Shown piece after piece: positions 3,784 through 46,929 of a DNA stretch of 48,228 nucleotides. The stretch lies in IMG/VR virus record IMGVR_UViG_3300031539_008099, positions 1 through 48,228 of that record, one strand, 5' to 3'. The translations under genes were made by a program, and so were the position numbers. Position 1 is the stretch's first letter. Each line of letters starts with the position of its first letter. The notes under the pieces are model-generated. The model made no database searches and was not told where the DNA came from. It saw only the letters and a program-made list of their open reading frames with translations. Source of the DNA: a virus.

Positions 3784-4764
3784 TCATAATCTCCTAAACG
3801 CTATAACATCCTCATACTCGATTTGCTTCACCTGCGGATATTTTTGGTGATATATAATCCTCCAGAATGATTGAGATGGTAACTTCCTGTAAAATCTCTC
3901 CATAAACTCAAAACCCGCTTGCTCACATAGTTTAATCGTGTCCAAATCCAAAGGGACTATCTGCTTATTGCGGATGAAGTTCTTTAAGACTAGAATCATT
4001 AAGCCTTCGGGCTTTAATACTATATGGCATTGTTGATAGACTTGTAGCATAGCCTGGAGATAGGTTTCTCCCTTTAAGTTGCCGATATTATCCTTACTAT
4101 GACTATACCTTGGATTAACAACCATAGAACCCTTAGTTAAAGCTCTAGCTGTCTCCTTAGAGATTAAGCCCTTATCTATTTTAGCTTGTAATCTCTCACC
4201 GCTTTTATCTATACCCCCTTCACAAAATCCCTCATATGGTGGGCTGGTAACAATACTATCTATTGAACCATAGGGAAGGTTGCCTATATTACTCTGGTCT
4301 CTCTGTGTGTACCAGCTATCAGGCGACTCATCGGTATAGGGAATCATGCCAGCCCGGGAGCCTCTCATCCCCCCATCCATTCTGTTTGTGTATGGCGGGC
4401 TCGTTACTACACAATCAGCTAGCAAGCCTTCTAAGTTTCTGGCATCGCCCTGAATTATCTGGCAAGTTCCCATCTCATATCCAAGCTGTGGCTTCATCTT
4501 CACTATCTGCCAATTTTGATAGCACATATTACAAAACTTATCCTCTAGCTCGACTAAAACTACATCCCGACCTATCGTGCAAGCCAGCATTTGAGTTCCC
4601 ATTCCTGCCATTGGGTCTAAAATCACATCGCCTGGCTTGGTATAGCGCTCTGTTATCCACAGGCATAATTGAGCATCCATTTTGGCGGGATGAGCAAAGC
4701 TATCAGGGATAAAGAAATCCTTGCGAAACTGTGTATCCCTTCTGAATTTTATTACTTCAATCAT
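3784..4764 (-). CDS. DNA methyltransferase, copy 2 (SPPY type)
   Basis: A 326-residue paralogue of the enzyme at 1790-2881. Motif I DPMAGMGT is at residues 50-57, with TSPPY near 121-125 and again near 173-177. The first 120 and last 90 residues match copy 1 almost exactly, and the phrases NIGNLPYGSIDS and NIGNLKGETYLQAM are shared. The segments after each SPPY differ completely in sequence and length. The start follows AAAGGA. Divergent central segments between conserved ends suggest different sequence specificities. Confidence 0.88.
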   Translation of the reverse strand: MIEVIKFRRDTQFRKDFFIPDSFAHPAKMDAQLCLWITERYTKPGDVILDPMAGMGTQMLACTIGRDVVLVELEDKFCNMCYQNWQIVKMKPQLGYEMGTCQIIQGDARNLEGLLADCVVTSPPYTNRMDGGMRGSRAGMIPYTDESPDSWYTQRDQSNIGNLPYGSIDSIVTSPPYEGFCEGGIDKSGERLQAKIDKGLISKETARALTKGSMVVNPRYSHSKDNIGNLKGETYLQAMLQVYQQCHIVLKPEGLMILVLKNFIRNKQIVPLDLDTIKLCEQAGFEFMERFYRKLPSQSFWRIIYHQKYPQVKQIEYEDVIAFRRL

Positions 4765-9765: not shown

Positions 9766-10418
9766 CTTAGAACCTCTTTTATAATTGCTAATATGTCTAT
9801 GTTGGAATCCTTAGCATCAGCAGCATGAGCAGCAGCATAAGCAGCATACGCATCATCATCAGCAGCAGCAGCAGCAGCATACGCAGCAGCATGAGCAGCA
9901 TAAGCATGAGCAGCATAAGCATGAGCAGCATAAGCAGCATACGCATCATCATCAGCAGCATACGCATCATCATCAGCAGCAGCATGAGCAGCATAAGCAG
10001 CATAAGCAGCATCACGGGAACGGTCTGTACCATCTAGCCAACTTTGCCCCCACTTAACAAATGCCGGCTCTGCATAAACACGGAGAGCGCACTTAATGGC
10101 TATCGCAACCCTCTGCTCTGTAGATATTTCTGGTAGGGGAACTTTTTTAATGGAGATGAACTCTTTGCAGCCTATTTTGCACCCATCACTGATTGTCTTC
10201 CCCTTTACTTTCCCCTCCCAACACTGGGGATTTTTAAAATCCCCATGAATAGCATTAAAGAAACTAGCCATTTCTGGCTCTGCATAAACGTGGATGCAGG
10301 TATTTGTGCAAAGAATCATCTTGCCTTTATTCGCACGATGCGTGATATTCTCCGCCCATTGTGTTGCTCCCCGAGTTTGTCCCTTATCATCAGTTAGTTT
10401 ATAGTGATATTTACTCAT
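9762..10418 (-). CDS. Ala/Tyr/His/Asp repeat protein
   Basis: A 218-residue protein. The first 130 residues form a globular domain with repeated motifs of the form CxHVYAEPEMA and CALRVYAEPAF. Then comes a low-complexity tract of about 65 residues built from AYAAYAAHAAADDDA-like units, ending in a helix (IDILAIIKEVL). I recall similar Ala/Tyr tracts from phage proteins of unknown function, possibly the DUF7666 type, but I cannot confirm the assignment. GGAGGG precedes the ATG, and it overlaps the leader ORF by ATGA. Confidence 0.65.
   Translation of the reverse strand: MSKYHYKLTDDKGQTRGATQWAENITHRANKGKMILCTNTCIHVYAEPEMASFFNAIHGDFKNPQCWEGKVKGKTISDGCKIGCKEFISIKKVPLPEISTEQRVAIAIKCALRVYAEPAFVKWGQSWLDGTDRSRDAAYAAYAAHAAADDDAYAADDDAYAAYAAHAYAAHAYAAHAAAYAAAAAADDDAYAAYAAAHAADAKDSNIDILAIIKEVLR
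9813..10013 (-). repeat. Trinucleotide-based low-complexity repeat within a gene
   Basis: Reverse-strand codons GCT, TAT, CAT and GAT recur in varying order, giving forward-strand CAT/AGC-type triplets. The period stays a multiple of three, so the protein frame is kept. Such tracts expand and contract by slippage. Confidence 0.8.
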
Positions 10419-10538: not shown

Positions 10539-10562
10539 GCCTATTACCAGCACATAACAGAC

Positions 10563-12885: not shown

Positions 12886-12962
12886 CCTTTAATCCCTCCC
12901 TCGTTAAAATAGATTAGGCGGGATGTGTGTGAAATCGATGTTGGGCAAAAAGGGTGCGAGCC

Positions 12963-13919
12963 ATGTCTAGCAAAAATGGTTTTATTTATCTATATAAAAA
13001 GGCACTGTCCCTGAATTACAGTTCGCCTTTGTTTGGATTTTTTACAAGATGCCTACTGTTAGCAAACCACTCTAAGGGAAAAGAACCAGGGGTTGTTAAT
13101 ATATCCACCAGGGAACTGAGCAATATAGCACACCTCAGCCGGCCAACAATTATCACTTATTTAAAGGAACTTAAAAATGATGGAACTATTAAGCTACTTT
13201 CCACAGGCACCCGCCGGACTAAATTTTACTTTATTAACTATGTCCAATATCAGACACAAAGGCAAACTGGTCAAAACGAGATACCAGTTCAGGGCCAAAC
13301 TGGTAAAAACGAGATACCAGTTCAGGGCCAAACTGGTCAAAACGAGATACCAGTTATACAAACTGGTAAAAACGAGATACCAGTTATACAAACTGGTCAA
13401 AACGAGATACCAGTTCAGGGCCAAACTGGTCAAAACGAGATACCAGTTCAGCTAGGGGATAAAAACCAAAAAAACGCCCAAAATTTAACAAAAATGCAAA
13501 CTGGTAAAAACGAGATACCAAAACTGGTAAAAACGAGATACCAAACTGGTAAAAACGAGATACCAAACTGGTCAAAACGAGATACCAGTGCTAAAGCTAA
13601 ATCAAAGCTAGGAAGTAATAGTAAATTAAGTAATATAAGTAAGAGTAGGGGGGACTTCTCTACTTTTGAAGAAAATTTATTTAATATTCTTTTAACCTGT
13701 AAGGCCATTAAAGGCGGTGATGCCTATAAACTACCTGAGTTAATAAAAGACTATCCTTGTGTTAATTACGGACTGGAGTTTAAGAAATTTGTGGAATGGT
13801 GGCCTGGTCCTAAGAAAAGGAGAAAGCCATGGGCAGTTTTACGAAACTGGTTAGAGAGATCACAGAAGGAAGTTATTAAACCAGAGTTAAAGGATTCAGG
13901 TTTTTACAAACCACTGTAG
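12963..13919 (+). CDS. Replication initiator (phage replisome-organiser-like) with embedded iterons
   Basis: Residues about 1-95 form a winged helix domain (NISTRELSNIAHLSRPTI, YLKELKNDGTIKLLS), as in phage and plasmid initiators. The middle (about 100-210) is an artefact-like repeat: the same DNA unit is read as TGQNEIPVQG, then as KLVKTRYQ and WSKRDT in other frames. The C-terminal part (from about 235) ends with WWPGPKKRRKPWAVLRNWL, a basic segment found in DnaD- or helicase-loader-like proteins. AGGGTG precedes ATG at 12963. dnaB follows 11 bases later. I infer that it binds its own iterons and loads DnaB, as lambda O binds iterons inside its gene. Confidence 0.75.
   Translation: MSSKNGFIYLYKKALSLNYSSPLFGFFTRCLLLANHSKGKEPGVVNISTRELSNIAHLSRPTIITYLKELKNDGTIKLLSTGTRRTKFYFINYVQYQTQRQTGQNEIPVQGQTGKNEIPVQGQTGQNEIPVIQTGKNEIPVIQTGQNEIPVQGQTGQNEIPVQLGDKNQKNAQNLTKMQTGKNEIPKLVKTRYQTGKNEIPNWSKRDTSAKAKSKLGSNSKLSNISKSRGDFSTFEENLFNILLTCKAIKGGDAYKLPELIKDYPCVNYGLEFKKFVEWWPGPKKRRKPWAVLRNWLERSQKEVIKPELKDSGFYKPL
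13264..13589. other. Iteron array, probable replication origin
   Basis: Ten copies of AAACTGGT(C/A)AAAACGAGAT followed by ACCA start at 13264, 13297, 13330, 13360, 13390, 13423, 13498, 13521, 13543 and 13565. The first six carry full AACTGGT/ACCAGTT inverted arms with an 11-base spacer. The last four are packed at 22-23 bases, about two helical turns. An A-rich stretch (about 13455-13497) separates the two groups, and an AT-rich run follows at 13600-13650, a possible unwinding element. The unit is read in different protein frames, so selection acts on DNA. Confidence 0.82.
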
Positions 13920-13930
13920 GAGATTGACTG

Positions 13931-15262
13931 ATGGCTGAAGAAAAACTACCCCCTCACAATATTGAAGCAGAGGAATCGTTACTGGGTGCTATCCTGCTTG
14001 ATAGTAACCAGATGAGCCGCATTGACCTAGAAACAGTTGATTTCTTTGAGGAAAATCACCAGGCTATTTACCATGCTATGCTCAATCTCTATAAACTTGG
14101 TGGTGGGATTGACCAAGTGACTGTTGCGCATGAGATAATGCGTCTAGGCAAACTTGAGCAGGTTGGCGGAGCCGGATACCTAAGTCATTTAATTTCAGTT
14201 GTTCCTACATCACTGCACGCGCCGTATTATGCTAAAGTGCTAAGGGATTGTTCACTGAACCGCCAGTTGCTCGATGCTGCGGGGCAGATTGCTGCGATAG
14301 GTTATGCTAACGGAGATCCACTGGAGGGGTTATCTAAAAGCCAGACCACCCTGAGTAGCATTAGCAAACTTATATCGCGTGATGAACTGCTGACACCGCA
14401 AGATATAGCGGGGAGGGCGGATGTAAGATACGAGATGTTGAGAGACATCCAGCCAGGACTTTCTAGCGGCTTTGCCCCCTTGGATAATAAGATTGGTGGG
14501 CTTTCAGATGGCGATTACATTATCCTGGCAGGACGCCCAGGAATCGGCAAGAGCACCCTAGCTTTACAAATAGCAGAAAATATAGCAGTAAACCATAACG
14601 CACTCTTTATTTGTCTTGAAATGACCGCGGATGCTATAACTGATAAGCGTATCTCTTGGGTTATTGGGAAGTCTGTTAGCATTGTAAGAAGGGGGAATTA
14701 CGGGGATGATTTGTTTGATGATATCACCTTTTCTGTAGGCAAACTTGCTGAGCGAAACCTATATCTCAGTCACGGGCCGGCTACAACACATTCCTTAAGA
14801 CGGGTTATGGAGAGTATGAAGTTGAGCTATGGCTTAGATATTGCATTTATAGATTACCTTCAGCTTCTACGTGACAGGTTCGGGAATAACGCTAATGAGC
14901 GCATAGGTTTTATCAGTGGCGAATTGGCGAACATGGCTAAAGAGTTTGACATACCACTGGTGGTATTGTCTCAGTTAAGCCGCGCACCTGATGGCAGAAT
15001 GGATCGTAGGCCCCATCTTTCTGACCTGCGGGAGAGTGGCAGCATTGAGCAAGACGCCGACCTCATTGTTTTTCTTTACCGCGACTCTTACTATGATCGT
15101 GAGGTCGAACCAGACGGTGCTGAAACTGAGGTGTTGATAGGTAAAGACCGAATGAGGGGGTTATCAGGTAAATTAAGCCTTTTCTGGGATGCTGAAGGGG
15201 AAAGGTATGTTAGCAATAAAAGACGCGCAAAAGATGCCCGTCCTACATTAGGCCTCTCTTGA
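13931..15262 (+). CDS. dnaB: Replicative DNA helicase DnaB
   Basis: A full-length 443-residue hexameric 5'-3' helicase. The N-terminal domain starts LPPHNIEAEESLLGAILLD. The RecA-like domain has Walker A AGRPGIGKST (about 200-209), the helicase motif LFICLEMTAD, Walker B DIAFIDYLQLL (near 303) and the arginine finger region LSQLSRAPDGRMDRRPHLSD with GSIEQDADLIVFLYR. It would unwind DNA at the origin in the gene just upstream. AGGAGATTGACTG precedes the ATG. The last 20 bases overlap a convergent leftward gene. Confidence 0.96.
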   Translation: MAEEKLPPHNIEAEESLLGAILLDSNQMSRIDLETVDFFEENHQAIYHAMLNLYKLGGGIDQVTVAHEIMRLGKLEQVGGAGYLSHLISVVPTSLHAPYYAKVLRDCSLNRQLLDAAGQIAAIGYANGDPLEGLSKSQTTLSSISKLISRDELLTPQDIAGRADVRYEMLRDIQPGLSSGFAPLDNKIGGLSDGDYIILAGRPGIGKSTLALQIAENIAVNHNALFICLEMTADAITDKRISWVIGKSVSIVRRGNYGDDLFDDITFSVGKLAERNLYLSHGPATTHSLRRVMESMKLSYGLDIAFIDYLQLLRDRFGNNANERIGFISGELANMAKEFDIPLVVLSQLSRAPDGRMDRRPHLSDLRESGSIEQDADLIVFLYRDSYYDREVEPDGAETEVLIGKDRMRGLSGKLSLFWDAEGERYVSNKRRAKDARPTLGLS

Positions 15263-22790: not shown

Positions 22791-24452
22791 ATGGCAGGCA
22801 TTACAGGAACAGTGCCACCTCATATTAACCATTTTAACGATATTGGCGATGTCAATGTCCCCGCACCAGTTGACGGCTATTTTGTTTACTGGGATGCCGC
22901 TGCTGGAAGGTGGCAGTGCCAACATGTAGTTACCACTGTTGATCACCTTAATGATATTGGTGACGTTAATGTGCCTGCCCCGGCTGACCAGTATTTTCTT
23001 TATTGGGATAATGCTGCGGGCAGATGGCAATGCAGGGCTCTAATTGATGCTGATATACCAGCTACCATAGCCAGGGATGCTGAGGTTGTTTTTGATATAG
23101 CTACTCATACTGCTTTGCCTAATGCTCACCACGCTCAAGACCACGCAGCAAGCCACGAACCAGGTGGCGGTGATGCTATGGCGGTTGATGCTATAGCAGC
23201 CACAGGTAGTTTGAGAACGCTTGGCGTGGGGGCACAGCAAGCAATGCAGGGCAATGCTACACCTATTCCTGCTGCTCACGCTGCCAGCCATGAGAACGGA
23301 GGAGGCGATGAAGTATCAGTTTTAGGGCTATCTGGATTACTGGCCGATGGGCAGACTCCGCTTGCACACGCAGCAAGCCACGAACCAGGTGGCGGTGATG
23401 CTATGGCGGTTGATGCTATAGCAGCCACAGGTAGTTTGAGAACGCTTGGCGTGGGGGCACAGCAAGCAATGCAGGGCAATGCTACACCTACTCCTGCTGC
23501 TCACGCTGCCAGCCATGAGAACGGAGGAGGCGATGAAGTATCAGTTTTAGGGCTATCTGGATTACTGGCCGATGGGCAGACTCCGCTTGCACACGCAGCA
23601 AGCCACGAACCAGGTGGCGGTGATGCTATGGCGGTTGATGCTATAGCAGCCACAGGTAGTTTGAGAACGCTTGGCGTGGGGGCACAGCAAGCAATGCAGG
23701 GCAATGCTACACCTACTCCTGCTGCTCACGCTGCCAGCCATGAGAACGGAGGAGGCGATGAAGTATCAGTTTTAGGGCTATCTGGATTACTGGCCGATGG
23801 GCAGACTCCGCTTGCACACGCAGCAAGCCATAACTGGCTAGGAAGTGACCAGCTTGAATTTCAGAATGCCTTTATAATGAATTCCCGTATTTTTCATTGT
23901 GACTGGCAGGCAGCCGATTATTGGACTCAAGTGCCAGGCGGCACAGGCAGTATCAGCATTGACATCCTGAATACCTTGCTTGCCACAGGAGCTACCAGTG
24001 GAGGCTCTGCCAGATTATACACCACAGCTTTGGGCTGGTCTTTGGGTGATAGTGTCCTGCAATTTTTGGTTAGTCCCTGGAATGTCCCCTCGGCACAGAC
24101 TGTCTGGCTAATCTTTAGACGTGGTGGAAGTACCGTTGGTGATGTTGTAGAGCATTGCGGCTTCAAGGTTATAAACGAAAGCATTTATGCCAGTGTTGGA
24201 AGCCAAGCTGGTGTGCAAACCATAGAGGACACAGGTGTTGATTGGGCCCGATATGATACGCTTAGTCTGGCTATTCGTGTTCCAGATGACGAATTAAGTG
24301 TTGAGTTTTACGTCAATGATGTTCTTACAAATACCATTACAACCAACCTCCCACGTTTCACTTATGGGCTACTCGTTCTTTACATCGAGAGTACTGACAA
24401 TGTGACACAAACTCTCCGCTCATATTCAGTCGGCTATTATAAAAACCCTTAG
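22791..24452 (+). CDS. Fibre-like protein with three 75-residue repeats
   Basis: The N-terminus has a tandem of two modules of the form HFNDIGDVNVPAPVDGYFVYWD, each ending RWQCxH/A. Then come three almost identical 75-residue repeats with HAASHEPGGGDAM and HAASHENGGGDEV, a motif type common in phage fibre proteins. A beta-rich C-terminal domain (about 350-553) resembles a lectin-like or chaperone-less tip. Likely the host-recognition fibre or spike of the particle. The GAGGG upstream of the ATG is weak. Confidence 0.75.
   Translation: MAGITGTVPPHINHFNDIGDVNVPAPVDGYFVYWDAAAGRWQCQHVVTTVDHLNDIGDVNVPAPADQYFLYWDNAAGRWQCRALIDADIPATIARDAEVVFDIATHTALPNAHHAQDHAASHEPGGGDAMAVDAIAATGSLRTLGVGAQQAMQGNATPIPAAHAASHENGGGDEVSVLGLSGLLADGQTPLAHAASHEPGGGDAMAVDAIAATGSLRTLGVGAQQAMQGNATPTPAAHAASHENGGGDEVSVLGLSGLLADGQTPLAHAASHEPGGGDAMAVDAIAATGSLRTLGVGAQQAMQGNATPTPAAHAASHENGGGDEVSVLGLSGLLADGQTPLAHAASHNWLGSDQLEFQNAFIMNSRIFHCDWQAADYWTQVPGGTGSISIDILNTLLATGATSGGSARLYTTALGWSLGDSVLQFLVSPWNVPSAQTVWLIFRRGGSTVGDVVEHCGFKVINESIYASVGSQAGVQTIEDTGVDWARYDTLSLAIRVPDDELSVEFYVNDVLTNTITTNLPRFTYGLLVLYIESTDNVTQTLRSYSVGYYKNP
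23142..23816 (+). repeat. Three tandem 225-bp repeats in the fibre gene
   Basis: Units start at 23142, 23367 and 23592, each beginning CACGCAGCAAGCCAC, followed by a partial fourth start at 23817. They are nearly identical, with one visible difference (ATTCCT versus ACTCCT near 23270), which shows recent tandem duplication or gene conversion. Confidence 0.92.
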
Positions 24453-25802: not shown

Positions 25803-25817
25803 ATGGAGGTAAAAACT

Positions 25818-26309
25818 ATGGGACTTAATACAGTAATCAAGAGAATCTCTCTTGACATAATGCAGGTGGCTATAAGGCCAGCGGAGATATATCTTCTCGC
25901 TGATTATAACCCAGGTAGCCTATTCACAATAGTAGGCGGACCAGTCTGGATAAAAGGTCTCTTCGCTCATGCTATCACAGCAGAAAATTCAGGAAACACA
26001 ATAGCTATAGCAGTATGTGGTGTAAACATGCAGAATGCTGCCGTAGTTGCAGATAGTCTGGTAGGTGACATAATCATGTGGCCTCTTGGTGCTGCTGCTA
26101 CGCAGGTTATAATCCCGAATCTGGCAGCGCAACCAATGCCAACGTTGGCATCGGAAATAATTGGGCAATCCGGAGGGCAAGTAGCAGGCATTGGTTCTGC
26201 TGGTGGTGATAATATTGCCCTGACTGTCGGTGGCAATTTAGTTTCACAGTTAGTATTCTATGTCGTCTACTATCGGTTGTCTCCTAACTCTGAGATAGTA
26301 GTCGCATAG
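25818..26309 (+). CDS. Beta-rich candidate structural protein, 163 aa
   Basis: It starts at the ATG with GGAGGT eight bases upstream. Strand-rich throughout (LFTIVGGPVWIKGLFAHAI, TIAIAVCGVNMQNAAVV, SQLVFYVVYYRLSP). The composition (few charges, many Gly/Ala/Val) is typical of capsid or decoration proteins. It forms, with the 183-residue protein, a pair of small abundant candidates. Fold unproven. Confidence 0.55.
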   Translation: MGLNTVIKRISLDIMQVAIRPAEIYLLADYNPGSLFTIVGGPVWIKGLFAHAITAENSGNTIAIAVCGVNMQNAAVVADSLVGDIIMWPLGAAATQVIIPNLAAQPMPTLASEIIGQSGGQVAGIGSAGGDNIALTVGGNLVSQLVFYVVYYRLSPNSEIVVA

Positions 26310-29975: not shown

Positions 29976-30650
29976 ATGCCAGGAGTTTTTATCTGGGGGT
30001 GCGAGAATCCAGAAGACGGAAGAAACTGGATTCCAGTTAAAGTTGGGCCTGATGGAAGTCTTTTTGTTAGTGTGGCTGAAGTTGCACTTGATTCTGGAGT
30101 AGCTACTGCTGGAACAGCCAACACTCTTACTGATAATACCAAGGGCTGGCAGGTCGATATCTTTAAGGACGCCATAATTGAGATACTGGATATTTCTACT
30201 GGCATTTCATATACCAGAGAGATTGATTCTAATACTGCCGATACCCCAAATTTTGCTACCCATCCCTTACCAGCAGCAGTTGTTGCAGGTGATACTTATT
30301 CAATAAAGAGAGTAGTCAATTCGCTTAGTCCATTGGCTCGGGCTGAGGTGCATAATGTTGCGGTTGTGGGGGGTGCAAATATTCTAGGTGCTGCGTTAGC
30401 TCCGGTTAACACACCAGCATTGTTTAGACTCACGGCAGGATTTGATACTGCTGGCATACTTAGCATTATACTGATTCGAGGTGGAGTCCCTATGACCCAA
30501 AATTTCAATCATGGAGTTGTTTTGACAGCTAACTCGCTTTTTATGTTTGACGCAGTTTTGCATTCAGGCGACACGTGCAACTTTGTCTACTCAGTGAATG
30601 CACAGCTACAGACTTTTCGTTTGGATGAAATTGTAGCCGCTGTTTGGTAG
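29976..30650 (+). CDS. Beta-rich structural-like protein, 224 aa
   Basis: It starts MPGVFIWGCENPEDGRNWIP after GGAGAATAAA. An N-terminal beta domain (to about 110) is followed by a C-terminal sandwich with GILSIILIRGGVPMTQN and LFMFDAVLHSGDTCNF, a pattern I associate with repeated small phage surface proteins. Located immediately upstream of the homing endonuclease gene. Confidence 0.55.
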   Translation: MPGVFIWGCENPEDGRNWIPVKVGPDGSLFVSVAEVALDSGVATAGTANTLTDNTKGWQVDIFKDAIIEILDISTGISYTREIDSNTADTPNFATHPLPAAVVAGDTYSIKRVVNSLSPLARAEVHNVAVVGGANILGAALAPVNTPALFRLTAGFDTAGILSIILIRGGVPMTQNFNHGVVLTANSLFMFDAVLHSGDTCNFVYSVNAQLQTFRLDEIVAAVW

Positions 30651-30658
30651 GGGTAAAT

Positions 30659-31411
30659 ATGGGATTTCAAAAAGGATATACACCTTGGAATAAAGGACTC
30701 ACAAAAGCTACAAGTGAGATTCTGGCAAATGGCGCCGCATATAAAAGCCAGTATGTGAGATTTGTTTTCCCTGATTTGATGCCATCTTTGAATTTAGCCT
30801 ATCTTCTTGGGGTTATGAAAGGTGATGGCTGTATTAGTAGAAATATAAAGAGCCATAAGCATATTTTATTATTGACTGTTAAGGATAAGGAGTTGGCTGA
30901 AGAGTTTAATAAAGTCGTGAAAGGTATTGGGTTGCATCCGAACCTATGGCAAACTAGGAGAGGTTATTATCGAGTTGAGGCAAATTCTAAAATCTTTTAC
31001 GAGTGGTATAGAGATTTATCACTTAGATCCCTTCAAGGCTTATTGCCAACAGAAAGTGAGAAGGCAGTATTTCTGAGAGGTTATTTTGATAGTGATGGGG
31101 GCTGTTATCCCCTACATGGAATTGTGGCAACAAGCACTAATAGTAAATTATTAAAGTTCATTCAGAACCTACTTTTATCTTTACAGATTTGGGCGAGTTT
31201 TGAGAAAAATCACCTTGGGGGAACAAGTTTAAGAGTTCATTCTGGTTCGTGTGTGAAATTTAGGGAATTGATTGGTTTCGTCATAAGGAGAAAACAAATG
31301 GCGTTAGAACAATATGTTGACCATAGGTTAGAAATTCTATCTAAAGGTTATCACCCACGTTATGCAAAACTATTTAGGTCATTTGCAGAGCTATCCGCAG
31401 CTACTCAATAA
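30659..31411 (+). CDS. LAGLIDADG homing endonuclease, free-standing
   Basis: 250 residues with two LAGLIDADG motifs, LAYLLGVMKGDGC (46-58) and LRGYFDSDGGC (139-149), each with the required acidic residue. The N-terminus (KGYTPWNKGL) resembles a NUMOD-type DNA-binding motif. It lies between two structural genes, neither of which is visibly interrupted, so it is an intergenic mobile gene rather than part of an intron. It would cut an allele lacking the gene and promote its own spread. AGGGG precedes ATG 30659. Confidence 0.88.
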   Translation: MGFQKGYTPWNKGLTKATSEILANGAAYKSQYVRFVFPDLMPSLNLAYLLGVMKGDGCISRNIKSHKHILLLTVKDKELAEEFNKVVKGIGLHPNLWQTRRGYYRVEANSKIFYEWYRDLSLRSLQGLLPTESEKAVFLRGYFDSDGGCYPLHGIVATSTNSKLLKFIQNLLLSLQIWASFEKNHLGGTSLRVHSGSCVKFRELIGFVIRRKQMALEQYVDHRLEILSKGYHPRYAKLFRSFAELSAATQ

Positions 31412-31851: not shown

Positions 31852-33636
31852 ATGCCAGGCGAGAGTATTCCTCAAGGCTTATGGCTTCCGCCAAGAACAG
31901 CCACTCTAGTTGTAGCTGCTAGTAATTCCTCTGACCGAGGTAGAGCGCAGGCCGATTTTGTCTGCGATGGAGTCAACGACCACATAGAAATCCAAGCAGC
32001 CTTGGATGCCCTTCCTGCTACTGGCGGAGAAGTATTCCTGCTTGATGGAACATATAACATTGAGGCTTCTCTAGCCCTTGATAGTTACCAGACATTGAGG
32101 GGTTGTGGCAGGAATACTATTCTCACTACTACTACTGCTGACCTTGACATCATTACTGCCACAGGCGGCGATGGAAGTGAGAAGGTGGGGATACTTATTG
32201 CCGACCTTTGTGTTGATGGGCAGGCAGGTGGCGTTGCTGGGGGTGAAGGAATATACCTGACCTATGTTGATTACAGCAAAATCACCAATGCGTGGTTACT
32301 GAATAATGCCTATGGCATTGATCTTAAGAATAGTAGCAACAACACCGTTACTGGCAACACCTGCCAGGGGAATCTTATAGAAGGAATTTGGTTATATCAT
32401 AGCAATAACAACACCATTACTGGCAATACCTGCCAGGGGAACAACTGCAATGGGATTTGTCTTTATAACAGCAATAACAACACCATTACTGGCAATACCT
32501 GCCAGGGGAACGGCGAGGACGGAATTTATCTTGAGTATAGCAACAGCAACAACACCATTACTGGCAATACCTGCCAGGGGAACGGCGAGGACGGAATTTA
32601 TCTTGAGTATAGCAACAGCAACAACATCACTGGCAACACCTGCCAGGGGAATCTTGACGGGGGAATTTGGTTATATCATAGCAATAACAATACCATTACT
32701 GGCAATACCTGCCAGGGGAACGGCGAGGACGGAATTTATCTTGATAACAGCAACAGCAACAACATCACTGGCAACACCTGCATAGAGAACTCTCAAACTA
32801 ATGATAATGCATACGCCAACATTTGGCTTGGAAGCTCTGATTATAACCTTATTGCCTCTAATCTTTGCCGAGCACCCACTATTGGCACTACTCTCACAAC
32901 AGGTGAAGCAGCAGGTGCAACAGAAATTCATGTAACTGCTATTACTGGCTTTGAAGTCGGCATGGGCGTGGTGATAGATTTAGATGGTCTGGGTGGTGGT
33001 ACAGAATACCACCATATAGTTGCAGTAGCTGCTGGCATAATAACAATTGATGCTGGGCTTACCAACATTCAAGCTGCTGGCGAGACAATAGATGTGCCAG
33101 AGGCACAGTATGGCATCAATATCTCTAATGATACCTGTGACAAAAACATCATCCAAGGTAATGACCTTCACGATTCAGGCAAGACAGCTAATTTTAACGA
33201 TGCTGGCACCTGCACAATAGTCAAGAGCGATAACCGGGAAATTGAGATAACCCAGGTTAAGAATTATGCCTATGTAAAGAATACTAGCGGTGGTGATTTA
33301 GTTGCTGGAGATGTGGTTAGCTATAAGGCAGTGGCAGCGGGGAATGAGGTTACTACTCCTGCCGCAGGGGGTGAAGACCAAGTATTCGGTATGTTAGGAG
33401 AGGATATAGCCAATAATGCTATGGGGTATGTTCAGGTTAGTGGCAAAACTGTTTTATTGAAGGCTACTAATGCCGTCGGTGGCAATATAGGAATTGGAGA
33501 TTTCTTATGTACTGAGATTGGCAACAGGGCAATGAAGGCTGGTGCTGGTGATATGGCTTTTGCTATAGCCTTAGAGGTTTGTGCTGCTGCTGATGTTACG
33601 ATTGATGCACTGATTGTAAGTTCGTTAAAGGTATAA
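31852..33636 (+). CDS. NosD-type right-handed beta-helix protein with repeats
   Basis: 594 residues. The start matches pectate-lyase-like proteins (VAASNSSDRGRAQADFVCDG, IEIQAALDALPATGGEVFLL). Residues about 160-310 hold at least seven coils of the pattern NTITGNTCQGNGEDGIYL, a classical parallel beta-helix. A C-terminal beta domain (about 460-594) follows with VKNTSGGDLVAGDVVSYKA, like tail or spike tips. Probably a depolymerase-like or binding spike; no catalytic residues were identified. Confidence 0.78.
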   Translation: MPGESIPQGLWLPPRTATLVVAASNSSDRGRAQADFVCDGVNDHIEIQAALDALPATGGEVFLLDGTYNIEASLALDSYQTLRGCGRNTILTTTTADLDIITATGGDGSEKVGILIADLCVDGQAGGVAGGEGIYLTYVDYSKITNAWLLNNAYGIDLKNSSNNTVTGNTCQGNLIEGIWLYHSNNNTITGNTCQGNNCNGICLYNSNNNTITGNTCQGNGEDGIYLEYSNSNNTITGNTCQGNGEDGIYLEYSNSNNITGNTCQGNLDGGIWLYHSNNNTITGNTCQGNGEDGIYLDNSNSNNITGNTCIENSQTNDNAYANIWLGSSDYNLIASNLCRAPTIGTTLTTGEAAGATEIHVTAITGFEVGMGVVIDLDGLGGGTEYHHIVAVAAGIITIDAGLTNIQAAGETIDVPEAQYGINISNDTCDKNIIQGNDLHDSGKTANFNDAGTCTIVKSDNREIEITQVKNYAYVKNTSGGDLVAGDVVSYKAVAAGNEVTTPAAGGEDQVFGMLGEDIANNAMGYVQVSGKTVLLKATNAVGGNIGIGDFLCTEIGNRAMKAGAGDMAFAIALEVCAAADVTIDALIVSSLKV

Positions 33637-41656: not shown

Positions 41657-41977
41657 ATGGCAAAACTTAAGATTTTCATTTCAGAACACTGCTTGCCCTG
41701 TCAGCAATTAAAAGAGATTGCTAAGAATGGTGGCTTTGGTGACGATGTGGAGGTCATTGATATAGAGACAGAGGAAGGCTTCCCTAAAATAGCCGAAATG
41801 GAGTTAGTAGAAATTCCAGTGGCTTACGAAGATGGCAAGAAATGTGCTATAAAATATTCTAACGATAATATTGAAATTAAGTGTCCTGCTGAGAATAAAA
41901 TAATAGGCGAGACTGAGACTGAAGTTAGTCCAGAGGGGAAAGATGCCGAAGGTTCCGCACGAGCCAGTCAAGGGTGA
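41657..41977 (+). CDS. Thioredoxin/glutaredoxin-like redox protein, 106 aa
   Basis: It starts MAKLKIFISEHCLPCQQLKE: the strand plus CLPC active site (Cys12, Cys15) of the glutaredoxin/thioredoxin fold, and VEIPVAYEDGKK supplies the cis-proline strand. Residues from about 75 are an acidic, glutamate-rich tail. It could reduce a disulfide or supply electrons to a nucleotide enzyme. The ribosome binding site is poor and the gene lies directly behind a terminator. Confidence 0.7.
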   Translation: MAKLKIFISEHCLPCQQLKEIAKNGGFGDDVEVIDIETEEGFPKIAEMELVEIPVAYEDGKKCAIKYSNDNIEIKCPAENKIIGETETEVSPEGKDAEGSARASQG

Positions 41978-42401
41978 ACAAGCAGGTATGCTTGGAGTCC
42001 CCTGCAAAGTTCATACTCAAAAGCGACCCTATAAGGTAGGACAGATGGAGTTTGAAAGCTATGCCAAATATAAGACCACAATGTCTGACCGCTTTACCAT
42101 CGACTGCTCTTATTGCGGTTTTCTCACCTCAGAGAAAACATTCAAGGAAGCCCTGGAGACCGCTGGGAGGCTTAAACTACGCCATCAGTCAAAGGGCGAG
42201 AAAATAGCCATTTTTGACCGACTGGCCCAGCGTGGTGCCTGCAACACCTGGGATGCGGAAGGGCACTGCATAGGCTACAAAGAGTGGAAGGAAAAAGAGG
42301 CGATGGATTGGAAAGCAGTAACCGAATTAAAGCAGATGTGCAGTCAAAGAGGTTTGCCAACCGACGGTAGAAAGGAAGATCTAATTAGAAGGCTCAAATG
42401 A
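41943..42401 (+). CDS. SAP-domain protein with zinc-finger-like motif, 152 aa
   Basis: The centre holds IDCSYCGFLTSEKTFKEALE, a Cys pair with later LRHQSKG and CNTWDAEGHC that may form a zinc site. The last 35 residues form a SAP helix-turn-helix (WKAVTELKQMCSQRGLPTDG), a DNA-binding motif. GAGGGGAAAG precedes ATG 41943. Overlaps both neighbours. Likely DNA binding. Confidence 0.68.
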   Translation: MPKVPHEPVKGEQAGMLGVPCKVHTQKRPYKVGQMEFESYAKYKTTMSDRFTIDCSYCGFLTSEKTFKEALETAGRLKLRHQSKGEKIAIFDRLAQRGACNTWDAEGHCIGYKEWKEKEAMDWKAVTELKQMCSQRGLPTDGRKEDLIRRLK

Positions 42402-43039
42402 AATTTGAAGGCATACCAATATTAAAACCTGCTCAAAGACCCTCTTTAGCCTTTATGAGGCAATATGTTCGTGTCACCTTTCTTGAAGAAGGGGTTACAC
42501 AGTTTATTTCAATTGAGGGAAGGGCTGGAGGTTATCAGGCGTTAGTTACCAGTGATAAAGGGGTTAAAGTTCCTGTAGGTAATTTATCAGTAACGCCAGA
42601 GGACGCTAGGGGGAGTGCAACGAAAATACTTAGTGAAAACCTAGAACTATTTGAAAGGGGTTGGGCAAAGCAGAGACAAACTTTTAGAAAGGTTGCCGAG
42701 AGTATAAGGAAAAAGAAAACTATATGGGCACAAAAGCTCAAACCATATAATAGGGAAATACTCTACAGAATCGTAGCAGGTGGGGAAATTGATAAACTCA
42801 TTACCGTAGCACCAGAAAATATACTGGAGGAGATCCCAGCCATAGAGAACGCAAAAGAAGATATTTATTGGTGGACTGTAGAGGAGCTCCGCGCAGAATG
42901 TGCAAGACAGGGTTTGCCAACCGAAGGACATAAAAAGCTACTAATTGAACTTTTGGCTCCGGGAAAAGGTATCAACCCTCCATACCCCACTAAAGCCGGC
43001 CAGGTTTGGGACCCGATAAGGCATATATGGGTAGAATAG
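42398..43039 (+). CDS. SAP-domain protein, 213 aa
   Basis: A beta-rich first half (YVRVTFLEEGVTQFISIEGR) and a basic helical middle lead to a SAP domain at about 157-190 (WWTVEELRAECARQGLPTEG), followed by a short proline/aromatic tail (PTKAGQVWDPIRHIWVE). Overlaps the previous gene by four bases. Role unknown. Confidence 0.65.
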   Translation: MKFEGIPILKPAQRPSLAFMRQYVRVTFLEEGVTQFISIEGRAGGYQALVTSDKGVKVPVGNLSVTPEDARGSATKILSENLELFERGWAKQRQTFRKVAESIRKKKTIWAQKLKPYNREILYRIVAGGEIDKLITVAPENILEEIPAIENAKEDIYWWTVEELRAECARQGLPTEGHKKLLIELLAPGKGINPPYPTKAGQVWDPIRHIWVE

Positions 43040-43040
43040 A

Positions 43041-43559
43041 ATGGATTGGCACACTATAGCAGGATCATCAGCGAAGACTATTCTTTCCGCATTAGATACA
43101 CTTTCGCCAAAAGAGCAAGTTTTAGTTGATATGGATTTGCACCGTAGGTATATTGAAGCCTCAAAAAATAAAATGGCAATTGAATTTTTAAAGAAAGATA
43201 CATTAGAAAAACAGAAAATACTTGATATTTTTGAAGGGAAAAATAAGAATCCGGAAGACATTAAAAATGCTATTGGTGTATTAACCCGAGACCAAAAAAT
43301 ACATCAATTTTGGGCAGCAAGAGGAGGAAGATTTGGTGGAAAAGAATGGAATAATAAATGGATTAGTATTTATGATAATTGGAAATCCCAGCTCACCGAC
43401 TTCTACAACCAAGCAGTTAAAGGAATAATAATCCCTAAAGCCGCTCCTAGTATGCCCTTTTACTGGTATAGTATCCCCGAGCTGAAACAGATATGCCAGC
43501 AAAGAGGATTGTCTACTGAAGGCAGCAAAGAAGATTTAATAAGGCGGGTGAGAAGGTGA
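43041..43559 (+). CDS. SAP-domain protein, 172 aa
   Basis: A helical first 125 residues with LTRDQKIHQFWAARGGRF, then a C-terminal SAP domain (YWYSIPELKQICQQRGLSTE, then EDLIRRVRR). The domain repeats the layout of its neighbours but the body is different in sequence. The ribosome binding site is weak; translation is probably coupled to the gene before it. Confidence 0.65.
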   Translation: MDWHTIAGSSAKTILSALDTLSPKEQVLVDMDLHRRYIEASKNKMAIEFLKKDTLEKQKILDIFEGKNKNPEDIKNAIGVLTRDQKIHQFWAARGGRFGGKEWNNKWISIYDNWKSQLTDFYNQAVKGIIIPKAAPSMPFYWYSIPELKQICQQRGLSTEGSKEDLIRRVRR

Positions 43560-44014
43560 AACTTACAAAAAGGCTAATTGAGGAAGCTGAAAATGAAGCA
43601 CAGCAAGAGTTACTTGAAATTATCAAGGAATGTAGAGAGCCTGAAGCAATCATAAAGGAAGCCAAAAGCGCTGTCCACTTCATGGAGCGCGAAATGGACT
43701 TACGGAGAGTTCCCTATGGTTATGAATTTGCCCCCAAAAAAAGTAGCAAGGGCAGGTCTTTAGGTGCTATAGGATATTTTATTGGTATCCCCACAGCAGT
43801 ACTTTCCATTAAACGCAAAATTTATCTGAAGTTTATTGAGGACTTTCAGAAGGAAATAGAAGAGCGCCGTACTATTTATCTTTTGCCTAGAGGCGTAAGC
43901 CCCTATAATTGGAATATTACTGAACTCCGTGAGATGTGTCGCTCTGAAGGGTTGCCTGATAGTGGAGACAAGAATATACTCATACAAAGATTAAGGAAAG
44001 TAAAAAAGCAATAA
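43556..44014 (+). CDS. SAP-domain protein, forward copy of an inverted pair
   Basis: 152 residues. A glutamate-rich helix (IEEAENEAQQELLEIIKECR), a helical core (AVHFMEREMDLRRVPYGYEF) with the phrase IGYFIGIPTAVLSIKRKIYL, and a SAP C-terminus (NWNITELREMCRSEGLPDSG). The opposite-strand gene at 44308-44769 encodes a close paralogue. GTG start after GGGTGAGAAG. Confidence 0.68.
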   Translation: MKLTKRLIEEAENEAQQELLEIIKECREPEAIIKEAKSAVHFMEREMDLRRVPYGYEFAPKKSSKGRSLGAIGYFIGIPTAVLSIKRKIYLKFIEDFQKEIEERRTIYLLPRGVSPYNWNITELREMCRSEGLPDSGDKNILIQRLRKVKKQ

Positions 44015-44021
44015 CTCTAAC

Positions 44022-44117
44022 TCAGCCAATTTTTATCCGGCATCCAACCTTCCCATAAGGTTTTGTAGATTTTACACGTTTTAGACGCTTTACCATACTC
44101 TTCAGCAGTTTAATCAT
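44022..44117 (-). CDS. Small basic peptide, 31 aa
   Basis: It starts MIKLLKSMVKRLKRVKST, extremely lysine/arginine-rich, with its ATG overlapping the stop of the upstream gene (ATGA). Might be a small nucleic acid or membrane-active peptide. Translated only by coupling, if at all. Confidence 0.4.
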   Translation of the reverse strand: MIKLLKSMVKRLKRVKSTKPYGKVGCRIKIG

Positions 44118-44311
44118 TCTAAACCTCTCTTGCCAATCTTGATCTTCCTACCAATGAGACGTTTACGCATACCCCACTGACCGTGAGAGATTTCGTCAAG
44201 TAAATTATCGTCAAGCCCACATAGGGCAAGCGTATCTAGCATATATTCCTTCCTATCTTCCTTCCACCTCTCCTTTAATGCCTTAATGTTGACTCGTAGA
44301 GTTAAAATCAT
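44114..44311 (-). CDS. Small charged protein, 65 aa
   Basis: Its ATG overlaps the stop of the SAP paralogue (ATGA), so it is coupled to it. Helical and basic (IKALKERWKEDRKEYM, LIGRKIKIGKRGLE), with DTLALCGLDDNLLDEISHG in the middle. No family recognised; nucleic acid binding is plausible. Confidence 0.52.
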   Translation of the reverse strand: MILTLRVNIKALKERWKEDRKEYMLDTLALCGLDDNLLDEISHGQWGMRKRLIGRKIKIGKRGLE

Positions 44312-44769
44312 TTTAGCCTTTTCACCTTCCTCAGCCTTTCTATCAATATACGCTTATCTCCATAATCAGGCAATCCTTCAGAGCGGCACATCTCCCGGAG
44401 CTCGGCAACATTCCAGACATAGGGACTTATACCTCTAGGTAAAAGATAAATAGGGCGGCGCTGTTCTAATTCCTTCTGAAAATCATTGATAAACTTCAAG
44501 TAGATTTCGCGTTTAATAGATAAAACTGCTGTAGGAATACCAATAAAATATCCTGTAGCACCTAAAGATTTGCCCTTGCTACTTTTTTTTGGGGCAAATT
44601 CATAACCGTAGGGTGCTCTCCGTAAGTCCATTTCCCGCTCCATAAAGTGGACAGTGCTTTTGGCTTCCTCTATGATTGCTTCGGGCTCTCTATATGCCTT
44701 GATAATTTCAAGTAACTCTTGCCGCGCTTCATCTTCAGCTTCCCCGACTTGCCTTTTTGTAGGTCTCAT
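44308..44769 (-). CDS. SAP-domain protein, reverse copy of an inverted pair
   Basis: 153 residues, nearly the same as the forward copy at 43556 (EEARQELLEII-type start, AVLSIKREIYLKFI core, SAP VWNVAELREMCRSEGLPDYG). The main differences are scattered, so both copies look functional. The promoter is exceptional: TTGAAT-N17-TATAAT and six bases to the ATG, with a 14-base palindrome in the spacer. It can be read as an autoregulated, leaderless gene. Confidence 0.7.
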   Translation of the reverse strand: MRPTKRQVGEAEDEARQELLEIIKAYREPEAIIEEAKSTVHFMEREMDLRRAPYGYEFAPKKSSKGKSLGATGYFIGIPTAVLSIKREIYLKFINDFQKELEQRRPIYLLPRGISPYVWNVAELREMCRSEGLPDYGDKRILIERLRKVKRLK

Positions 44770-44775
44770 GTTTCC

Positions 44776-44804
44776 ATTATAGTCAACATTGCAATGTTAT
44801 TCAA
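44776..44804 (-). promoter_or_regulatory. Promoter with operator palindrome, probable leaderless mRNA
   Basis: Reverse strand TTGAAT (44804-44799), 17 bases, TATAAT (44781-44776), then six bases to the ATG at 44769. The spacer is mostly a perfect 14-base palindrome, AACATTGCAATGTT (44785-44798), which abuts the -35 box: a classical position for repressor binding. Confidence 0.72.
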
Positions 44805-44866
44805 TACCAGATATAATATATTTTGTTCTATCCCTAAACTACGATGCCAACGTGACGGGCAGTACC

Positions 44867-44898
44867 AGGGGGGGGGTTGTAGTAATACAGCCCCCCCT
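44867..44898 (-). terminator. G/C-rich hairpin after the ATPase operon
   Basis: A run of nine G (44868-44876) can pair with seven C (44891-44897), around a loop that can add a short TGTA/TACA stem. It lies 32 bases after the stop of the P-loop ATPase gene. There is no U-run on the leftward transcript, so its role as a terminator is uncertain. Confidence 0.45.
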
Positions 44899-44929
44899 TA
44901 CTTACAGTATCTTCCCCATTAAGTGGCGA

Positions 44930-45814
44930 TTAGTTCAAGCCGAACAACCTTAAAACTAAATCATCTTTGTTGCCTGTAGTCGGCAATCCTCTTTCATGGC
45001 ATAGCGCTTGAAGCTCGCTAACATTGTGCCAGTAAGGATCTTCTAAACCTTGCGCTTTCATCTCTTCTCGTAATCTCTCTGGAGACAATTCAAGTTGCTT
45101 TGCTTTCTCTTCTATGCTACTGGAGTAGTCAACGCCAACGCCACTCCAGATTTCAGACAAATCCTGAGACCAAAAGCTAGGCAAGCCATTCTGCAATAAT
45201 CCCTGCCAGCGTATTCTAGGGGCAACAATATAGGTATTTTTCAATACTTCGTCTTCAGACGGCATTTCATCGAACCGCTCTCCAGCTCGGGACATCATTC
45301 CCATAATGACATCAGCACTTTTCTTTGAAGCAAATTCCAGAAGGTAAGGCGGCCGCTTAAAAAGAAAGGCTCTAAAAAATGGTAGGTATGTCCCCTTGAC
45401 TAATCGTGGGAAATGATAAGCCAGAATGAAGATCTGCTTGCGTTGTCTCGGCAAGCTCAAAAAGTTTATGACCGCCTCTTTGTCCTTGTTGCTATCCAGG
45501 GGTAACTGAATATCTGCTTCGTCAATAAAAACTATCGCGTTCTCGTTTGATGCTATTTCCATGATATCATCAAGGAACTTGAAATTATCAGGTAAGAGTG
45601 TCCGCTTGTTTTTAGGTAAACCTACAACCGAAGGAGTCAAACCATATTTCTCACTATACCTCTCCATAATGAAATATGCCAACGCAGATTTTCCTGTTCC
45701 AACATCACCGGTTAGTAAATATGACGCTTTCGGCTGGATCACTTTATCCCACTGATCTTCTTCTGCTTTATCTGGTGCTCCAAAGTTTTTTAAGAAATCA
45801 TCTATTTCACTCAT
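44930..45814 (-). CDS. P-loop ATPase with C-terminal SAP domain (packaging candidate)
   Basis: 294 residues. Walker A is LTGDVGTGKS (34-43) and Walker B is AIVFIDEAD (93-101). RKQIFILAYHFPRLVKG (about 125-140) is a sensor-like strand followed by an arginine that may act in trans. This fits the HerA/FtsK-like or Zot-like ATPase class used by non-tailed viruses to move DNA. Residues about 259-294 are a SAP domain (YWHNVSELQALCHERGLPTT). ATG 45814 follows GGAGG and overlaps the stop of the DnaX-like gene. Confidence 0.7.
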   Translation of the reverse strand: MSEIDDFLKNFGAPDKAEEDQWDKVIQPKASYLLTGDVGTGKSALAYFIMERYSEKYGLTPSVVGLPKNKRTLLPDNFKFLDDIMEIASNENAIVFIDEADIQLPLDSNKDKEAVINFLSLPRQRKQIFILAYHFPRLVKGTYLPFFRAFLFKRPPYLLEFASKKSADVIMGMMSRAGERFDEMPSEDEVLKNTYIVAPRIRWQGLLQNGLPSFWSQDLSEIWSGVGVDYSSSIEEKAKQLELSPERLREEMKAQGLEDPYWHNVSELQALCHERGLPTTGNKDDLVLRLFGLN

Positions 45815-46506
45815 ACCGCTACTGCCTCCTTTCCCATAATAATACACTGCTCAAACAAATTCTCGGCTTTCCTCATATTACCACCACTAGACTGAGCTAT
45901 AAACTCTGCGTGCTTAGGGTCAAGCTCTATTTGCTCTGCCTGGGCTATTGAGCGTATTTTACCCTTTATATCCTCCAGCTTCAATTTCTTAAATGGGAAT
46001 AGTTCACACCTGCTAGTCACTGTGTCAGGTATTTTGGTGATGTCAGTTGTGCAGAGTATTATGACTAGGTGTTGTGGCGGTTCTTCAAGCAACTTTAGCA
46101 ATCCATTCCACGCCGGATCTGTTAGTTGGTGGCACTCATCTACGATATACACTTTTTTATTGCCGATAGGCGAAAAGAACGCCTTGTAAGCTAAGTCCTT
46201 TACATCGTCTATCCCCCTGTAGCGCGCTCCATCAATTTCAAGGACATCCCAAGATCGGCCCTGGCGGATGGCTTTGCAGGACTGGCACTCACCACAAGGT
46301 TCACCCGTGCCATCAAGGTTATAGCAATTCAAGCAAGATGCTAATACGCGAGCTGTCGTTGTTTTACCTGTGCCGGAAGCACCAAAGAATAGGTATGAGT
46401 GGTGAAAGGACTTAGCCTGTGCTTGTTTTTTAAGTATAGATGTTATGTGATCCTGCCCTAAAACCTGCTCAAAGGTCTGTGGTCTGTATTGATTATAAAT
46501 TGCCAT
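45811..46506 (-). CDS. dnaX: DnaX-like clamp-loader ATPase, short form
   Basis: 231 residues covering only the AAA+ ATPase portion of the bacterial gamma/tau subunit. It starts MAIYNQYRPQTFEQVLGQDH. Walker A is GASGTGKTTT, the zinc module is CLNC and CGECQSC, Walker B is VYIVDECHQL and the SRC sensor/arginine finger is VTSRCELF. It lacks the usual collar and tau extensions. It may load the host sliding clamp on viral DNA. ATG 46506 follows GAGGGAGG. Confidence 0.88.
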   Translation of the reverse strand: MAIYNQYRPQTFEQVLGQDHITSILKKQAQAKSFHHSYLFFGASGTGKTTTARVLASCLNCYNLDGTGEPCGECQSCKAIRQGRSWDVLEIDGARYRGIDDVKDLAYKAFFSPIGNKKVYIVDECHQLTDPAWNGLLKLLEEPPQHLVIILCTTDITKIPDTVTSRCELFPFKKLKLEDIKGKIRSIAQAEQIELDPKHAEFIAQSSGGNMRKAENLFEQCIIMGKEAVAV

Positions 46507-46687
46507 TTTTAACCTCCCTCTTGAACTCCATAACCTCAATGGTCTTTATTTTTTTGAGAGGTAAGGATGCAAAGTCATCCTCCTCAACTAGATCCTGGCT
46601 AACCTTCTTATTTCCACTAGACGGGTATAGCTTCGCTGGTATGGCAGCCATACCAAAATTAACACTGCCTTTCCAAATGCTTCTCAT
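46493..46687 (-). CDS. Miniature Ku-like protein, 64 aa
   Basis: It starts MRSIWKGSVNFGMAAIPAKL, a near-perfect match to the N-terminus of bacterial Ku (IWKGxIxFGLVxIPVKLY), then jumps to DFASLPLKKIKTIEVMEF, which matches the Ku segment before the beta-barrel core (xLxxLxPxxSRTIEIxxF). The roughly 60 residues between these in real Ku, and all of the DNA-ring and C-terminal parts, are missing. AAGGA precedes ATG 46687. No ligase D is present. It could act as a Ku mimic, inhibitor or adaptor, or be a remnant. Confidence 0.68.
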   Translation of the reverse strand: MRSIWKGSVNFGMAAIPAKLYPSSGNKKVSQDLVEEDDFASLPLKKIKTIEVMEFKREVKNGNL

Positions 46688-46689
46688 TG

Positions 46690-46929
46690 TCAAACTTCCT
46701 TTTTCAAGTCCCATAGGTAACAGTCTATCGTGTCCCAAGTGATACCTATTGAGCAATCTTGTTTGTTGTCCATTCTGTCAAGAATATCTCTGGCTTGATC
46801 CTGGCTGCACTTGATACCTTTTTCTTTAGCTCGCCCTAGCACATCATCCTCACACCAAATAGCGATAGCAACATGGTCATTAGGACTCATACCCTTAAAT
46901 CTGTTTTTTGCCTCTGTTACTGTTGGCAT
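46690..46929 (-). CDS. Hypothetical protein, 79 aa
   Basis: It starts MPTVTEAKNRFKGMSPNDHV after AAAGGAGG. Contains AIAIWCEDDVLGRAKEKGIK and RDILDRMDNKQDCSIGITWD, a compact helical pattern that I associate with small phage proteins of unknown role. Between the mini-Ku and the 53-residue gene in the leftward unit. Confidence 0.6.
   Translation of the reverse strand: MPTVTEAKNRFKGMSPNDHVAIAIWCEDDVLGRAKEKGIKCSQDQARDILDRMDNKQDCSIGITWDTIDCYLWDLKKEV

Follow-up and report, generated by a model that had tools for sequence, protein, structure and literature searches.

A putative replication origin of ten iterons inside the gene of a viral DnaD-like initiator

An origin of replication that lies inside the gene of its own initiator is an established arrangement, found in lambda (PMC7466680), SPP1 (PMC6316719) and pSK41 (PMC5703833). 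The iterons of lambda gene O are about 19 bp long and spaced about 20-24 bp apart (20, 24, 23), and those annotated at 39034, 39054, 39078 and 39101 fall in gene O frames 0, 2, 2 and 1, respectively. SPP1 carries its oriL within gene 38, whose product binds direct repeats there, with an AT-rich unwinding element adjoining them (PMC6316719). In pSK41, the winged-helix N-terminal domain of Rep, a RepA_N protein, binds four Rep boxes that lie centrally in its own gene and encode a linker (PMC5703833).

The window analyzed here is a whole IMG/VR virus record of 48,228 bases. Its plus strand carries, at 12954-13919, a gene whose likelier start is the ATG at 12963 and whose sequence indicates a winged-helix DnaD-like phage initiator of PHROG 186. 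The whole protein matches phrog_186 ('DnaD-like helicase loader') at E=5.6e-9 and its N-terminal domain alone at 1.5e-8; the same domain matches phrog_2514 at 3.5e-4, and the open reading frame also matches a generic winged helix in Pfam. The winged helix (about 12963-13262) is followed by a linker encoded by repeats (about 13263-13600) and then by a C-terminal domain. We conclude that the ten repeats under this linker are very probably initiator-binding iterons of a replication origin, placed inside the gene of the initiator that would read them.

A domain model built with AlphaFold2 from 39 aligned members, all of which match both phrog_186 and phrog_2514, reaches a pLDDT of 82, and its helices and strands follow one another as in a winged helix. 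Its Foldseek matches in the PDB are weak and of the generic wHTH kind; 4pql, 4pt7 and 5kbj (plasmid Rep) are among the first sixteen, and 5kbj and 4pt7 bring a Rep-DNA complex and an initiator into the list. The C-terminal part (13590-13919) has no match in Pfam and thus no DnaB_2/DnaD domain (PF07261). This domain occurs in some PHROG 186/2514 members only, L009 being the one case among five relatives scanned, and is not strictly defining. Translated searches with the initiator found no close relative, nor did searches of viral contigs, phages, plasmids and genome contigs with the iteron pattern, the initiator, the DnaB and the ATPase. The weak matches of the initiator are to Staphylococcus, Vibrio and Lactobacillus phage initiators, which are about 30% identical along the full length of the domain and share its Y..YQ end.

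The array consists of ten copies of AACTGGT(C/A)AAAACGAGATACCA at 13265-13587, in which position 8 is the sole variable base. Exact copies of AACTGGTMAAAACGAGATACCA start at 13265, 13298, 13331, 13361, 13391, 13424, 13499, 13522, 13544 and 13566, and all ten lie on the plus strand. The count expected from 100 dinucleotide shuffles is 0, and the rest of the record holds no copy with three or fewer mismatches, the best outside match having six. Start-to-start steps of 33, 33, 30, 30, 33, 75, 23, 22 and 22 agree with the periods of 22 and 33 reported by TRF, and the 75-base step, where an A-rich insert of 53 bases parts unit 6 from unit 7, divides the array into two groups. Iterons 1-6 (13265-13448) are spaced 30 or 33 bp apart, and each runs on as ACCAGTT to give AACTGGT-N11-ACCAGTT, a 25-bp element with 7-bp inverted arms. 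Beyond an A-rich spacer on the same strand (13449-13498; the 50-bp segment from 13451 is 68% A+T and contains 28 A), iterons 7-10 (13499-13587) stand nearly head to tail at a spacing of 22-23. The inverted arms are down to 4 bp in units 7-9 and nearly full in unit 10, which ends in ACCAGTG. The ten repeats, the division of their spacing after the sixth and the full arms of the first six had all been described in a first-pass annotation of this DNA, and all three observations are borne out.

At 10.5 bp per helical turn, no spacing departs from a whole number of turns by more than 0.19 turn (a chance of about 0.012), with the phase drifting across the last four units. The array also folds far better than its shuffles, with z scores of −6.9 as RNA and −9.3 as DNA, which could mean that the inverted arms work as hairpins, be it in single-stranded DNA or in the mRNA of the initiator. 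The same folding is expected of a dyad that serves as a binding site, however, and units 7-9 keep the 22-bp unit exact without full arms. The arrays of relatives hold few such dyads, with a median of one hairpin-like element per 330 bp and at most 4 against seven in the window array, and Rfam offers no match to the array. A hairpin function is hence scarcely credible, and binding of the initiator to duplex repeats is the preferred reading. Terminator-like matches on the minus strand of the array were rejected as by-products of the inverted arms.

Counted from the start of the open reading frame at 12954, eight units (1-7 and 9) are in the same frame and encode TG[Q/K]NEIP, and only units 8 (LVKTRYQ) and 10 (NWSKRDT) are shifted. 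The earlier claim of one frame for the first six copies and others for the last four is therefore right in that shifted copies exist and wrong in where it divides them, as units 7 and 9 are unshifted. Position 8, which reads C A C A C C A A A C in units 1-10, displays the double use of this DNA. A T there creates a stop codon in the common frame, and an A or G creates one in the frame of unit 10, so that C, the base found in unit 10, is the only one open in both.

Recoding the window protein synonymously leaves 1.9 units on average (maximum 6) against the ten observed. The first-pass annotation had taken constant DNA under different frames to mean selection on the DNA. The window array alone does not imply this, because not only the copies but also the spacers among them (CAGGGCC, ATAC) are identical, as recent duplication would also make them. 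The repeats could then be a coding minisatellite, a disordered linker grown by replication slippage whose copies and 22-bp unit are recent duplications without function at the DNA level; other coding tandem repeats do occur in the record at 9797-10033, 23142-23830 and 32245-32790. Yet both letters of position 8 occur with both types of spacer, which indicates that this position was changed or shuffled repeatedly while the 21 other sites stayed fixed. Selection at the DNA level finds better support in a comparison across relatives.

For this comparison, the 80 loci of a profile search of viral contigs were stripped of near-duplicates and joined with earlier loci and the window to give 80 distinct genes. 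The loci covered are the ones closest to one family member (L017), and their identity to the window protein is only about 20-33%. A tandem repeat, called significant when at most 1 of 60 dinucleotide shuffles was as good in the 160 bp after the winged helix, is present directly behind this domain in 74 of the 80 genes, the window included. The mean self-match score is 24.7 behind the domain, compared with 6.3 inside it and 7.2 further downstream. Periods of 11 (47 genes), 9 (7), 22 (6), 33 (6) and 12 (4) are found, the cases with 9- and 18-bp periods being mostly A-rich tails and not iterons. Arrays lie wholly within the open reading frame in 77 of the 80 genes, and 67 of the 80 score higher than synonymous recodings of the same gene (at most 1 in 100 as good; lags 11, 12, 22, 23 and 33 only). 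Since 11 is not a multiple of three, each copy falls in the next frame; copy-by-copy rotation is seen in eight of nine relatives examined, and the exception, L013, has a 12-bp unit. An A-rich purine tract follows the 11-bp array in loci L019-L098, with a mean A+T of 0.72 against 0.63 for the gene.

The units themselves differ among phages (GGACAACAAAC, TGAACAACAAG, AACCAACAACA and others), and what persists is their place and period. Such fixed place and period with unlike units has the look of a binding-site array under selection, and, as far as these sequences indicate, intragenic iterons indifferent to frame are the rule for the DnaD-like initiator family. A minisatellite accounts poorly for an array that recurs at the same place in so many relatives with unrelated unit sequences, and the family period, mostly 11 and thus no multiple of 3, contrasts with the periods of the record's other coding repeats (9-24, 225 and 69). 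Slippage without function is on these grounds improbable, and we retain the reading of the repeats as binding sites. The combination of an 11-bp array behind the winged helix with an A-rich purine tract after it seems to mark origins generally in DnaD-like phage initiators, and we found no published statement of such an 11-bp rule for this family in the open-access literature. The 11-bp period is the commonest in the family but not universal, so it is not strictly defining, and the 22-bp unit of the window falls outside it.

A comparison of the window with the closest described systems shows both a shared plan and differences in its parts. The N-terminal domain is homologous, at about 30% identity, to that of the 'replication initiation protein' of Staphylococcus phage IME1361_01 (PHROG 186/2514). 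Initiators of PHROG 186/2514 have, as in the window, an array placed directly after the Y..YQ domain end, a rotating frame and then an A-rich tract; the window array begins at 13265, right after the domain end at about 13262. Typically, however, they use direct repeats of 11 bp (e.g. AAATCAACAAC) that lack a dyad. The window is unusual within this family in having a dyad unit of 22-25 bp, with inverted arms, in two spacing classes.

The likeness to lambda gene O, which also has inverted-repeat iterons in mid-gene, likewise read in more than one frame (three in lambda), and then an AT-rich tract, is one of function and not of homology. A relationship to lambda O was rejected on sequence, as the initiator has no PF04492 match at E<=1 (5.7e-36 for lambda O, the positive control) and an hhalign probability of 7%. 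Inverted arms had been offered in the first-pass annotation as a distinction from lambda, a point that does not hold, since lambda iterons are imperfect inverted repeats as well (PMC7466680). The differences are instead that the loader gene P comes next in lambda, which has four iterons, whereas dnaB itself comes next in the window, which has ten units. The 10-mer TCAAAACGAG, common to the window unit and lambda iteron 1, is a curiosity at a chance of about 0.01 and was given no weight. SPP1, by its published description (PMC6316719), resembles the window in having origin repeats inside the initiator gene and differs from it by an additional origin and by gp39, a separate loader. The layout is also like that of pSK41, with repeats placed centrally in the initiator gene and encoding a linker, but the RepA_N domain PF06970 is absent among the Pfam matches of the initiator at E<=1, which places it in a different family by sequence.

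A candidate DNA-unwinding element of 76% A+T (13597-13646, plus strand) starts 10 bp after the last iteron, and by nearest-neighbor energy only four other 50-bp segments in the 48-kb record are less stable. Next to the initiator gene lies a gene for a full-length DnaB replicative helicase (13931-15262, plus strand; PF03796 at E=4.2e-65, PF00772 at E=1.8e-27, phrog_19 at E=1e-82). The winged-helix initiator, the dnaB next door, the AT-rich tract after the last iteron and the array at the same place throughout the family together argue for an origin, in agreement with the first-pass annotation, which had called this the likely origin on the strength of an initiator-type protein and an adjoining dnaB. 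The initiator might instead bind the array mainly for autoregulation, copy-number control or partition, with the origin proper elsewhere. Extra iterons are indeed regulatory in some phages and plasmids, and the top generic wHTH match in Foldseek is the partition protein TubR. The position of the array beside the AT-rich tract and dnaB speaks against such a role, as does the fact that neither the surroundings of the promoter nor the rest of the record contain an iteron-like site, and no partition ATPase or filament gene was recognized among the proteins scanned. We regard a mainly regulatory array as quite improbable and continue with the origin.

Cumulative GC skew had been proposed as a check, with a minimum near 13.4 kb. 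The minimum falls at 10,558, with the maximum at 44,008, but skew is positive on the coding strand of every gene block, the island of minus-strand genes at 15.2-16.7 kb among them. Skew in this record mirrors the direction of the genes, is uninformative about the place of the origin and was rejected as evidence.

Binding, melting and DnaB loading at the array are inferred from lambda, SPP1 and pSK41. By this analogy, the winged helix, probably in dimeric form, would bind the dyad unit of 22-25 bp. This unit is the likely site, as opposed to the tighter dyads between units, because the 11-base gap between its arms is constant and the stretches between units vary. Several bound units, lying on roughly one helix face, could then assemble into a nucleoprotein complex of the lambda O-some kind that would melt the candidate unwinding element, and the C-terminal domain and/or a host loader may bring in the viral DnaB. 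Units 7-10 would be the likelier core because of their lambda-like spacing and the adjoining AT-rich tract. Units 1-6 may be auxiliary or regulatory, by analogy with the extra iterons of Stx phages, which are auxiliary (PMC7466680). The encoded peptide would be a tolerant linker in which mainly length and openness matter.

The rest of the record points to a virus that may be unusual, perhaps tailless, or incomplete. It has no terminal repeats, and no terminase, portal or capsid protein was recognized among roughly 30 proteins scanned against PHROGs; terminase-sized open reading frames are absent apart from identified or fibre-like ones, and the structure model of a candidate capsid protein (25803-26309) is unusable at a pLDDT of 29. 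Packaging could be the task of an AAA ATPase that carries a SAP domain (44930-45847). It ends a run of proteins at 41943-45847, each with a SAP-like motif at its end, within which inverted 458-bp copies, 84% alike, lie at 43557-44014 and 44311-44768. Two DNA methyltransferases, 70% identical (1790-2881 and 3784-4764, minus strand), flank a PAPS-reductase-like gene; their ends are nearly identical in DNA, while their central segments, perhaps for target recognition, differ. A fibre-like gene contains an in-frame 225-bp unit repeated 3.1 times at 99% identity (23142-23830), which either expanded very recently or arose in assembly. A 9-24 bp tandem array at 9797-10033 (minus strand) encodes a low-complexity stretch rich in alanine, tyrosine, histidine and aspartate (AAYAAHAADDD), and a homing-endonuclease-like gene (30644-31411; phrog_4645, 2.3e-9) lies within the structural gene cluster. 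On the minus strand at 45811-46756, a DnaX/clamp-loader-like gene of 242 aa is preceded by an 87-aa open reading frame whose resemblance to a Ku-like protein (phrog_4873, 1.1e-5) is confined to the first 47 residues of the latter. A host call from the DnaX-like protein was rejected, its best matches, in Clostridia and Actinobacteria, being only 45-46% identical; a search for P0001 in three genomes from these matches found nothing and carries no weight.

Lambda and SPP1 are among the phages in which an intragenic origin has already been described, and the window is in this respect a fairly ordinary new case. It nonetheless locates a replication origin, with good support, in a virus without close relatives in the collections searched. 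A more tentative and on balance doubtful proposal is that a DnaD-like lineage swapped 11-bp direct repeats for lambda-type dyad iterons and a two-module origin, with four core units and six palindromic control units. If true, an unrelated initiator family would have converged on the lambda O-some, and this in a virus without recognized tailed-phage packaging genes. The family-wide regularity is probably of more use than the window itself. It suggests a rule for metagenomic viruses, to seek a frame-ignoring tandem repeat directly behind a DnaD-like winged helix, which would give an origin call from sequence alone, and the surveyed arrays form a natural data set for DNA that serves as binding site and code at once.
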